Assembly (NCBI GenBank): GCA_902619105.1
Contig: CACNCV010000001.1
Span: 332,706-396,705 of the forward strand
Direction: 5' to 3'
Source: an uncultured Pelagibacteraceae bacterium
GTDB lineage: Bacteria; Pseudomonadota; Alphaproteobacteria; Pelagibacterales; AG-422-B15
DNA: 64,000 nt
The position numbers were made by a program, and so were the translations under genes. The notes below the pieces were generated by a model. It searched no databases and was not told where the DNA came from. It saw only the letters and a program-made list of their open reading frames with translations. Of the stretch, positions 43,481 to 49,777 are shown piece by piece (the stretch's first letter is position 1; each line of letters opens with the position of its first letter).

Positions 43481-43780
43481 TTAGTTATTTTGTAGACTTT
43501 TTGCAACCCTAAAAACGTTAAGAATTCCTGCTGCACTACCTAAGAGAAAGAAAATTAATGTGAAGATGGGTCTTGTATTAAAATAATTGTCAATCAGCAA
43601 ACCAATTCCTAGTCCAACAGCCATTGCTGCGACAATTTCAACCACTACTTTCATGATTTTACCGAATGGTTTGGGGGCTCTAGCTTCTTTAATAGACTGG
43701 CCCTCTTTTGCTTTTTTTATTCTATTTTCAAGAGAATTAGCATCATTATTCATCTTCAATAAACTAGGCAACGGCTCCAA
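43481..43780 (-). CDS. atpI: ATP synthase protein I
   Basis: 99-aa small membrane protein with two helices (VVVEIVAAMAVGLGIGLLID and PIFTLIFFLLGSAAGILNVFRVAKSL), matching AtpI/AtpQ of alphaproteobacteria, involved in c-ring assembly or Mg uptake. Its start overlaps the end of smc by 17 bp, so the F0 genes appear to be continued from smc rather than having a separate intergenic promoter. Confidence 0.9.
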   Translation of the reverse strand: MEPLPSLLKMNNDANSLENRIKKAKEGQSIKEARAPKPFGKIMKVVVEIVAAMAVGLGIGLLIDNYFNTRPIFTLIFFLLGSAAGILNVFRVAKSLQNN

Positions 43781-46355
43781 TCTCTTCAGCTTTCTTAAGA
43801 TCTACAGAGACAATTTGACTGACACCTCGTTCAGCCATAGTTACTCCAAATAATCTATCCATTCTCGACATTGTAAGCGCGTGGTGAGTTATAATTAAGA
43901 ACTTGGTATTCGTTTTTTCTGTAATGTCATCTAAAAGACCACAAAATCTATCGACGTTTGCATCATCCAGTGGCGCATCAACCTCATCAAGCACACAAAT
44001 TGGCGAAGGATTTGTTAAAAATACAGCAAAGATCAGAGATAATGCTGTTAGTGCCTGTTCCCCACCAGATAACAATGACATTGATTGAAGTTTTTTACCT
44101 GGTGGACTTACCATCATTTCAAGCCCCGCTTCAAGCGGATCATCAGAGTCTATAAGTTCAAGGTGCGCTTTTCCACCGTTAAATAATTTTACAAAAACTT
44201 CTTTGAAATGTGTGTTTACAGTTTTAAACGCTCCAAGCAGTCTTGTTCTACCTTCTTTATTTAAATCTTCTATAGACTCCCTCATTTTTTTGATTGCGTT
44301 TTCTAAATCTTCTTTTTCAGTCGTCATTTTTTCAAGTTCTTGATCTATTTCTTTTGTTTCCAAATCTGCCCTTAGATTCACAGCACCCATTGTTTCACGC
44401 TGCTGCTTAAGTCGATCAAGTCTCATTTCAGTTCTTTCGAGGTTAGCTCTCATAGTTTCAAGATCATCTGATATAGAGAGAGAATTTACAATTTCACTAG
44501 GAATACAGTTAAATTTCTCTTTTGACTCGTATTCTAATTCTTTTAATCTTGATTCAGCTAATTCTTTTGTAGCTTCTGTTCTTCCTTTAGACTCTCTTAT
44601 GTTAGCGAGATCATTTTGGGCTTTTCTTAAATTAGTCTCAATTTTTTTTAATTCATTATCAGCCTCAGCTAAACGATCAGCAGCAAACTGCCTTTCTGTC
44701 TCTGCAAAGCCTTTTGTTTCAATTAATTGACCTCTTCTCTGGGCAATTTCTTCTGGACGATTAGAGATTTTCTCTAGCTCTTGCTCAGTTTTTATTTTTC
44801 TTTTTTGTAATATTTCGATTTGTTCCTGAGATGACTTAATTGTTTTATTCAATCTCTGAAATTCATATGTCCAATCACTTTGTTTTTGTTCAACGTCTTT
44901 TTGTCTGAGTTTTTCTCTTAATTCCATTGATAATGTTGCTGCATTTTTTGCCTCATTACTTGCTCTATCATAATTTGCCTTAGCTTCGTCCGAAATATTG
45001 CTTGCTTGATCCACTTTCTCACTGATTTCACCAAGATCATTGTAAAATCTTTCTTTAAATATATTTGTCCATTTCTCAGGATCATCATAACCTTCTACGT
45101 CTTTTAAAGTTGATTGCCTTGATTTCAAATTTTCTGCTTTAATCAAAGTGTCTTGCCAATCATCTCTTTTAGAATTTTTAATCTGATTATATTGTTCTAT
45201 TTGTTGCTCAAGATTTGAAATCTCTGTTTCCAAAGTATCCTTTTCTGACTTAAGCTGATCAATTGTTTCATTGTTTATTTCTTGAAACTCTTCGTTATTA
45301 GAGAGATCTCTTCTTGCATTAAGTAAATCAAGGTCTTTTTTAGCATCTTCCAGTTGAAACTGCTCCCTCTCACTATCACTGATTATTTGTTGAATCACGT
45401 TTTCAAGATTTCTTTTTTCTTCTTTTATTCGTTCTTCCTCATGATCCAATGACTCTCTCTCGAGATTAATGCGATTTAATTTTGCCGCAGACTCAATCTC
45501 TTTATCTCTTAAAGGCTTAATTTTCTCATTGGCTCTTAATTGTTCATTCGTAGCCTGAGTTACCTGCAACGTAAATTTTTGGATTTGAGACTCACTTGAT
45601 CTTAAATTCTCATCTGACTTTTCATAAGATTCTTTTAAAGATGTCCACTTTAGGAATAAAACGATACCCTCTAATTTGTTAATTTCAGACGATACTGAGC
45701 GGTAGGTTTCAGCTTGTTCAGCTTGTTTTTTAAGACTATTGATTTGATTATTTAATTGTTTCATCAAATCCTTAACCCTTTGAAGATTAGTTTCTGCGCC
45801 TTTCAATTTTAGCTCTGCTTCATGTCTTCGCGAATGTAACCCAGATATTCCTGCCGCTTCTTCTAATACCGAGCGTCTATCTATAGGTTTAGCATTTATT
45901 AATGAACCTACGCGTCCTTGGCTGATCAAGGATGGAGAATGAGCTCCTGTAGATAAATCCGCAAATAATCTTTGTACATCTCTGGCTCTAACGTCTTTAC
46001 CGTTAATTTTATAATCTGATCCCTTTTCAACTTCTATTTTTCTTTTAACTTGAATTTCAGTTTGATCATTAAATTCAGACGGCGCGTTTCTTTCCTCATT
46101 ATCAAGATAGATTGTTACTTCAGCATTATTTCTTGCTGGTCTATCTGATGTACCAGAAAAAATTACATCTTCCATTCCTGAACCCCTCATGCTTTTTGCA
46201 GAGGTTTCTCCCATGCACCATCTTAGGGACTCAACAACATTTGATTTACCACATCCATTAGGACCAACTATGCCTGTTAATCCCTCATCGATGTCTAATT
46301 CAGTAGGATCAACAAATGATTTAAAACCTAAAATTTTTATTTTTTTAAATTTCAT
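43764..46355 (-). CDS. smc: Chromosome partition protein SMC, short form lacking a recognisable hinge
   Basis: 863-aa SMC ATPase; typical bacterial SMC is ~1150-1200 aa. The head is complete: Walker A GPNGCGKSN (31-39), LISQGRV, signature SLLSGGEQALTALSL (~760), Walker B PICVLDEVDAPLDDANVDRF, and D/H-loop IITHHALTMSRMDRLFGVTM. Between the two arms, where a ~150-aa hinge with a GYE-AL-type domain should lie, there is only a short non-coil stretch around residues 417-440 (DVEGYDDPEKWTNIFKERF), then coil resumes. No CxxC zinc hook is present. It overlaps atpI by 17 bp and follows dsbA by 1 bp overlap. Confidence 0.9.
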   Translation of the reverse strand: MKFKKIKILGFKSFVDPTELDIDEGLTGIVGPNGCGKSNVVESLRWCMGETSAKSMRGSGMEDVIFSGTSDRPARNNAEVTIYLDNEERNAPSEFNDQTEIQVKRKIEVEKGSDYKINGKDVRARDVQRLFADLSTGAHSPSLISQGRVGSLINAKPIDRRSVLEEAAGISGLHSRRHEAELKLKGAETNLQRVKDLMKQLNNQINSLKKQAEQAETYRSVSSEINKLEGIVLFLKWTSLKESYEKSDENLRSSESQIQKFTLQVTQATNEQLRANEKIKPLRDKEIESAAKLNRINLERESLDHEEERIKEEKRNLENVIQQIISDSEREQFQLEDAKKDLDLLNARRDLSNNEEFQEINNETIDQLKSEKDTLETEISNLEQQIEQYNQIKNSKRDDWQDTLIKAENLKSRQSTLKDVEGYDDPEKWTNIFKERFYNDLGEISEKVDQASNISDEAKANYDRASNEAKNAATLSMELREKLRQKDVEQKQSDWTYEFQRLNKTIKSSQEQIEILQKRKIKTEQELEKISNRPEEIAQRRGQLIETKGFAETERQFAADRLAEADNELKKIETNLRKAQNDLANIRESKGRTEATKELAESRLKELEYESKEKFNCIPSEIVNSLSISDDLETMRANLERTEMRLDRLKQQRETMGAVNLRADLETKEIDQELEKMTTEKEDLENAIKKMRESIEDLNKEGRTRLLGAFKTVNTHFKEVFVKLFNGGKAHLELIDSDDPLEAGLEMMVSPPGKKLQSMSLLSGGEQALTALSLIFAVFLTNPSPICVLDEVDAPLDDANVDRFCGLLDDITEKTNTKFLIITHHALTMSRMDRLFGVTMAERGVSQIVSVDLKKAEEIGAVA

Positions 46356-46984
46356 TAATTAATTTCTTTTTCAATTATTTCATCAAATTCATTAATCGAC
46401 ATATTACCTGCATAAATTTCACCATTGATTATGAAAGTTGGAGTTGAAGATATATCATACTCCTCAACACCCTCTATGCGCTGCTCCAGTATAAAATCAG
46501 TAATATTCTCATTTTCCATACAGCTATTAAACGCCTCCTCAGATACGCCGAATAGGGCCCCGTAATTCTTAAGTGCATTAGTGCTGTTTTCTAGTACTTT
46601 ATCGCTCTGACTAGTTACAATCCATTTTTTTTGATCTTTAAACAAAATTTTGTCCATTGCAAAAAAATCATTTTCATCAACACAATGAAGTAATTTAAAA
46701 GCGTTAAGATCAATCGCATTGAGAGCGAAAGGTCTCAATTCAAAATTCACTTTACCTTTATCGATATAATTTTCTTTAATTTCTGCAAAGGTGTCATTAC
46801 TAAAGTCTGCGCAATGACTGCAAGTGAGCGATCTATATTCAATAATTTTCACTGGTGCGTCGCTATCACCTAACTGCATACCCTTTAATGTACTGCTGGC
46901 ATACAATCCATTAATTGGAAACATCAACGCAAATAGAAAGACAATAAAACTAGTACTGAATAAAAAATTAGATTTAAAACCCAT
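46355..46984 (-). CDS. DsbA-family periplasmic thiol oxidoreductase
   Basis: 209 aa with a signal peptide (FLFSTSFIVFLFALMFPINGLYAS) and a thioredoxin-fold domain with active site SLTCSHCADFSNDTF (CSHC) and cis-Pro region ISSTPTFIINGEIYAG. It probably introduces or isomerizes disulfides in the periplasm; a DsbG/BdbD-like role is possible. It sits between DUF721 and smc, the standard alphaproteobacterial order. A putative promoter with palindrome lies just upstream. One-base stop-start overlap with smc. Confidence 0.88.
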   Translation of the reverse strand: MGFKSNFLFSTSFIVFLFALMFPINGLYASSTLKGMQLGDSDAPVKIIEYRSLTCSHCADFSNDTFAEIKENYIDKGKVNFELRPFALNAIDLNAFKLLHCVDENDFFAMDKILFKDQKKWIVTSQSDKVLENSTNALKNYGALFGVSEEAFNSCMENENITDFILEQRIEGVEEYDISSTPTFIINGEIYAGNMSINEFDEIIEKEIN

Positions 46985-47092: not shown

Positions 47093-47560
47093 TTAGGACT
47101 TTAAAATTTTTGAAGCGATTTTTTCAAAGTTTCTTCTAAGATCAGGATATTTTTTTAGTTCATCATAATTCTTACTTTGGCTCTTAATATCACTTTCTAA
47201 TTTATTGATTTTAATTGTTTTTTTAACCTTAATTGATGCTTGTATTATTTCAACTTTGTTGATCACTTCATAGCCAAAAAAAAGATTAATTTTTTTAATT
47301 ATTTTCTCTCGCTCGTGCTCAAACGCAAAAGCCACACTTCTATCAATTTTAACAATTAATTTACCATTATTTTTTTCACTACTCTTTCCTATTTTAAGCC
47401 TTAAAGGGACAGTTAATTTTGCAAATTTTTTGCCTACAATTCTCTCCCAATTTGCTAAGAGTTCTAACTCTGAAAAACCTCTTGATTTAAGAATTTTCTT
47501 TGCTTCTTCTGGAAGAAGATTTGATAATATTTGAGGGCCGCTTAATTTCTTTTGAAACAT
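47093..47560 (-). CDS. DUF721 (DciA-like) protein
   Basis: 155-aa DUF721 protein. The core LLPEEAKKILKSRGFSELELLANWERIVGKKFAKLTVPLRLKIG...LIVKIDRSVAFAFEHEREKIIKKINLFFGYEVINKVEIIQ matches the family. DciA-type members load or support replicative helicase DnaB in bacteria lacking DnaC; this shorter alphaproteobacterial kind is uncharacterized, so function is inferred. Divergent from mutY across 21 bp and upstream of dsbA. Confidence 0.82.
   Translation of the reverse strand: MFQKKLSGPQILSNLLPEEAKKILKSRGFSELELLANWERIVGKKFAKLTVPLRLKIGKSSEKNNGKLIVKIDRSVAFAFEHEREKIIKKINLFFGYEVINKVEIIQASIKVKKTIKINKLESDIKSQSKNYDELKKYPDLRRNFEKIASKILKS

Positions 47561-47581: not shown

Positions 47582-49777
<2,196 letters not shown>

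Follow-up and report, generated by a model that had tools for sequence, protein, structure and literature searches.

The question raised by this locus is whether the chromosome of SAR11 bacteria is served by an SMC protein devoid of a hinge. The hinge is regarded as a core and almost universal element of SMC proteins, required to close the ring and to admit DNA, and has lately been proposed as a gate for the bypass of obstacles; the SAR11 SMC may represent a natural test of whether the SMC motor needs it. The window (i.e., the whole stretch of 64,000 nucleotides analysed here, from an uncultured Pelagibacteraceae bacterium) harbors on its minus strand (43764..46355) an smc gene encoding 863 aa, with an ATG start and 0 internal stops. 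Its product is assigned to the NCBIfam equivalog TIGR02168 (SMC_prok_B), with a score of 728.3 bits that exceeds the curated cut-off of 567.35, and it matches Pfam SMC_N; in its own genome, 1 SMC match was retrieved at E<=1e-3.

The N-terminal ATPase half-head (residues 1-165; 45861..46355, minus strand) contains the Walker A motif GPNGCGKSN (residues 31-39), and the C-terminal half-head (residues 700-863; 43764..44258, minus strand) contains the signature LSGGEQ (762-767) and the Walker B motif CVLDEVDAP (787-795). The columns of the three motifs are invariant or almost so in alignments of 12-40 relatives, and the complete split ABC ATPase head by which a bacterial SMC is recognized is present. 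The original prediction of an intact, 863-aa ORF with both head halves complete agrees with the ORF check, with these columns and with the heads folded in an AlphaFold2 model. The solved structures nearest by sequence are Smc heads (e.g., 5xg3, 3zgx, and 5h68); when the predicted model was used with Foldseek, 5xei (Smc head-and-coil) ranked first, and most of the other top matches were SMC proteins. Non-synonymous differences in the gene amount to about 0.09 per site versus 0.77 for synonymous ones, the synonymous sites being near saturation, a pattern that indicates strong purifying selection. Since the central hinge expected of a canonical SMC was not found, the sequence data place the window protein as an orthologue and a structural variant of bacterial SMC.

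The absence of the hinge was assessed with two profiles of different sensitivity. Pfam SMC_hinge (PF06470) gave no match in the window protein even at E<=10, nor anywhere in its own genome. This model is, per se, too insensitive to serve as the sole hinge test in the class Alphaproteobacteria, where it scores above its cut-off in only 63/192 genomes; for this reason, a custom profile (A1) was built from 24 alphaproteobacterial hinges. A1 matches 131/192 genomes of the class, some of them very small and some from two families whose SMC proteins are short, and this result represents a positive control; the Pfam model thus misses about half of the alphaproteobacterial hinges. Among the class genomes listed as negative for A1, those compared with the survey of SMC have an SMC that is either broken at contig ends or undetectable (41 others lie outside the comparison); in many small-genome members of the class, SMC is undetectable altogether. 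In the window's order, by contrast, A1 has no match in any of 297 genomes (150 are of high quality), a result that also speaks against a hinge encoded by a separate gene in these genomes. With all filters off, A1 scores 0.7 bits on the window protein. It had been proposed that the string VEGYDDPEKW at the arm tip recalls the beginning of a hinge; this suggestion finds no support, as the hinge profile scores 0.7 bits on the window protein and <=3.5 bits on the relatives of the same family with hmmsearch, and the profile-profile comparison (hhalign) assigned a remnant a probability of 0.1%. Lastly, no CxxC motif was found in the 30 short SMCs examined. Both the lack of a hinge and the lack of a Rad50-type hook had been anticipated from the letters of the window, and both hold on the strength of the Pfam search, of A1 (0/297) and of the CxxC search.

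The structural model points in the same direction. AlphaFold2, run as a monomer on an input of 40 sequences (mean pLDDT 78; 8 close sequences had left the heads unfolded), predicted folded heads and helices spanning residues 171-352, 362-414, and 426-531, connected at the tip by a loop (415-425) rather than by a globular domain. A globular fold at this point had been named beforehand as the finding that would speak against a missing hinge. The N-terminal coiled-coil arm (residues 166-414; 45114..45860, minus strand), composed of predicted helices with a low-confidence break at 353-361, and the C-terminal arm (residues 426-699; 44259..45080, minus strand), which contains the conserved anchor W495, are therefore predicted to end in a simple turn of ~11 residues (415-425; 45081..45113, minus strand) of low pLDDT, located at the hinge site and devoid of any hinge profile match. 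The span from anchor to anchor is ~494 residues in the hinge-bearing Alphaproteobacteria, ~136 of which belong to the hinge, versus 196 in the window protein; on this basis, we estimate that, besides the hinge, ~85 residues were lost from each arm, in a symmetric fashion.

The tip itself is not the same in both families of the order. In the family of the window (f1) it consists of an aromatic turn, STLKDVEGYDDPEKW, while in the second family (f2), whose SMC occurs in discrete forms of 798, 809, 814, 857, and 880 aa, it is a plain helical hairpin, as judged by sequence. In neither family does the tip contain CxxC, and the conservation of the f1 tip (0.70-0.76) is not above that of the adjacent arm segments. 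Since an aromatic turn in one family corresponds to a hairpin in the other, no single new dimerization motif appears to be conserved across the order. In the 857- and 798-aa forms, a cysteine outside any CxxC recurs near the tip, as C432 in L122, L124, L134, L135, and L139 and as C403 in L129, L131, and L136. A match between the arm lengths and the functional windows of Bacillus subtilis Smc was also considered: a rough estimate gives values near 253-267 for f1 and for the 857-aa form, whereas the forms of 798, 814, and 880 aa do not fit, so no claim concerning arm windows is made.

The analysis of the distribution of smc revealed that the gene is present in 57/58 genomes of the order, single-contig and closed ones included, and that its intact copies measure 863-868 codons in f1 and about 798-891 in f2. 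The named relatives are Pelagibacteraceae single-cell genomes, AG-896-A02 and AG-404-P01 showing 99% identity. On the evidence of the profile searches (0/297), the loss of the hinge is a trait of the whole order, as had been supposed for this lineage; a deletion due to an assembly error, which would have undermined that supposition, is excluded by the occurrence of the same gene in 57/58 genomes, closed ones among them. The other named Alphaproteobacteria with a full-length SMC in the same scan possess a hinge, with the only exception of MarineAlpha6/SP38.

In a phylogenetic tree of the heads, f1 and f2 group together (100/99) inside the class. Shortening of SMC has followed more than one route. 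Two streamlined genomes, G082 and G191 (L137 and L138; families f27 and f122), harbor at the same locus an SMC whose total length (865-882 aa) is similar to that of SAR11; unlike the latter, it retains a complete hinge and has instead lost ~135 residues per arm. A clade joining these SMCs with those of SAR11 was rejected (p-AU 0.009, MarineAlpha6 being left out), and so was a common origin of all the short SMCs of the class (p-AU 0.03, or 0.009 without MarineAlpha6). The MarineAlpha6_Bin4 and SP38 MAGs (L183:3501-5951 and L184:3501-5951) share with SAR11 a hinge-less SMC, of 817 aa, in the same locus, and their genomes encode ScpA; the head tree, in contrast, places their sequences beside a hinge-bearing one (89/71), even though long branches and an unusual composition limit the tree. 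A single loss shared by MarineAlpha6/SP38 and SAR11 is not rejected (p-AU 0.21), and the loss in the former is possibly independent, judging from the position of their heads. The opposite trend is observed in G078 and G188, whose very long SMC frames (1523-1531 aa) contain a hinge.

The organization of the locus is ordinary. The order mutY-dciA-dsbA-smc-atpI is common to the hinge-bearing Alphaproteobacteria, and in the window smc is preceded by dciA (47093..47560, minus strand; Pfam DciA) and by a dsbA-like thioredoxin gene (46355..46984, minus strand; Pfam Thioredoxin_4), its upstream neighbor, and followed by atpI (43481..43768, minus strand; Pfam ATPase_gene1), all of them supported by synteny. 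A gene located not far from smc (48630-49727, minus strand) resembles, by sequence, a CcrM-type adenine DNA methyltransferase. It might be argued that the protein is an artefact of assembly, frameshift, or gene calling, or a misread Rad50/RecN-like protein. Rad50/SbcC likewise combines ABC heads and a coiled coil with the lack of an SMC hinge; nonetheless, the zinc hook formed by CxxC belongs to Rad50, and the window protein, devoid of CxxC, is an SMC by both profile and synteny, with SMC_prok_B as the best match and the Rad50 models far below their cut-offs, so that an identity with Rad50/SbcC was discarded. The same structure recurs in dozens of independent assemblies, closed genomes included; no point in support of an artefact or of a misreading was found, and this explanation is hardly conceivable.

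The partners of Smc are retained as well. ScpA and ScpB are each encoded, in tandem, in 51/58 genomes of the order; the search for the two genes suggested along with the original prediction thus gave a positive outcome also in the window's own genome, with ScpA of 265 aa and ScpB of 227 aa (G000:C7 799-1596 and 1604-2287). ParB is present in 55/58 genomes and a canonical parS (<=1 mismatch) in 52/58, 50 of which possess a single site; parS lies ~1.5-2 kb from parB, and a reversed parS pattern used as a control matched in just one genome. In the window's own genome, a perfect parS palindrome (G000:C1:34437-34452; L334:1438-1453) is located in the rsmG-parA-parB region, with parB at G000:C1:35903. 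The idea that this lineage might load SMC in a different way finds no counterpart in these data, ScpA, ScpB, ParB, and canonical parS being all retained. The possibility that a single parS goes specifically with the loss of the hinge was also considered, an idea weakened by the hinge-bearing streamlined genome G082, which likewise has one; for this reason, the single site is permissive at most.

The retention of these partners bears on a further possibility, namely that in slow-growing cells with a small chromosome SMC has become largely dispensable and that the hinge was lost on the way to the loss of the gene. The streamlining of these genomes and the small-genome members of the class with no detectable SMC would fit such a scenario, but smc persists in 57/58 genomes with intact motifs and under strong purifying selection, and ScpA/ScpB/ParB/parS persist alongside it, making a relic improbable. 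Since ScpA-ScpB, ParB, and canonical parS are retained, gene content indicates a hinge-less Smc-ScpAB, neither a relic nor a Rad50.

How such a complex might close its ring is suggested by experiments on other systems. It is known that in B. subtilis Smc becomes non-functional once hinge dimerization is lost, and that a Rad50 zinc hook can substitute for the Smc hinge (PMC5344682); a hinge-less result of Minnen et al. 2016 is cited here through PMC5526789. Moreover, the core Wadjet complex fails when its ring is opened, a closed ring being needed (PMC12647877). Given that dimerization is indispensable for B. subtilis Smc, and ring closure for the core of Wadjet, a real substitute for the hinge must exist. 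On the basis of these published results, we infer an assembled and active Smc-ScpAB that would be loaded at parS and closed by its arms and tips. We consider it somewhat probable that this complex is a loop extruder that has permanently lost the hinge, with a ring closed by arm/tip pairing together with ScpAB, and that it is poor in bypass. According to this scheme, ParB would load the hinge-less Smc-ScpAB at the canonical parS near parAB, and the heads, with the ScpA kleisin and the dimer of ScpB holding them, would drive a DNA-translocating (loop-extruding) cycle; in place of hinge-hinge dimerization, the two coiled-coil arms would pair side by side, together with their hairpin tips. The original suggestion that this lineage may pair SMC in a different way is, in this respect, a reasonable one. 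The single-strand gate of the hinge being missing, large obstacles would be poorly bypassed, a defect that might be tolerable where the chromosome is small and has a single site of loading. In B. subtilis, the chromosome folding of arm-modified Smc was rescued by removing all but one parS (PMC8357415), and, by analogy with this rescue, one loading site may make the missing gate affordable.

Two other arrangements should be taken into account. The SMC proteins might lack any distal dimer and be joined only at the heads, through ScpA/ScpB and ATP engagement; such an open clamp would bridge or hold DNA, without forming a closed, loop-extruding ring. This would accord with the failure to find a dimerization domain or a hook, with the retained heads and ScpAB partners, and with a tip motif not conserved across the order; against it, the core Wadjet complex stops when the ring is opened (PMC12647877), and long paired arms (roughly 230-275 residues) are retained, a feature superfluous for a clamp made by the heads alone, so that we regard the clamp as unlikely. 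Alternatively, another protein could dimerize the arm tips in trans in place of the hinge, as might be expected from the need for ring closure in the systems studied and from the lack of an intrinsic substitute among the features found. No hinge-like sequence was detected in the 297 genomes of the order, though, and the neighbors of smc are ordinary conserved genes that also flank hinge-bearing smc; such a partner appears very improbable. We retain, as the preferred reading, a ring closed by the arms, the tips, and ScpAB.

Compared with the canonical Smc of Smc-ScpAB (TIGR02168; B. subtilis and Caulobacter), the SAR11 system is alike in heads, arms, ScpA/ScpB, ParB/parS loading, and alphaproteobacterial locus, and differs in the missing hinge, in arms ~85 residues shorter each, and in the simple helical turn at their end. 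Another parallel is the engineered JetC core of Wadjet, from which the segment from elbow to hinge has been removed and whose arms are joined by a short linker, as in SAR11; it is a loop extruder without bypass (PMC12647877), a behavior that for SAR11 is only predicted. There, an introduced disulfide is required, while closure in SAR11 would be natural and the family is Smc-ScpAB, not Wadjet.

Hinge-less SMC proteins were published in 2025 as an abundant ocean-metagenome clade, annotated as Actinomycetes and near the actinobacterial SMCs (Sussfeld et al., PMC12153180). As far as the passages available from that paper describe it, the clade is similar to the SAR11 protein in having SMC heads and a coiled coil, in lacking a hinge and a CxxC hook, and in being marine and present in one copy; the same passages do not describe its partner genes or genome, and their description of the clade sets it apart from the SAR11 protein, which is alphaproteobacterial and whose genomes and partner genes are known. 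The alphaproteobacterial affiliation of the window SMC emerges from the head tree, from synteny, and from the named relatives, and no actinobacterial affiliation was encountered. In the literature searched, no report of a hinge-less SMC in SAR11 was found. This kind of protein is therefore not wholly new, and the SAR11 case adds evidence at the genome level: as far as genome searches can tell, its smc is the sole detected, orthologous SMC within a complete Smc-ScpAB-ParB-parS set.

It is conceivable, although we lean slightly against it, that the SAR11 chromosome is run by a natural "core-only" loop-extruding Smc-ScpAB with hinge-less ring closure, the hinge being dispensable in nature and its loss having occurred repeatedly among marine bacteria with streamlined genomes. 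An order that lacks the hinge and retains heads, ScpAB, ParB, and parS, and that is very abundant and partly culturable, makes the roles of the hinge directly testable; these include the necessity of a ring, the element that closes it, the dispensability of obstacle bypass, and the dependence of the arm-length rule on the hinge. As a minor observation, a record titled Mesoflavibacter (Bacteroidota; L202) carries an alphaproteobacterial SMC, and the genome is probably mislabelled.
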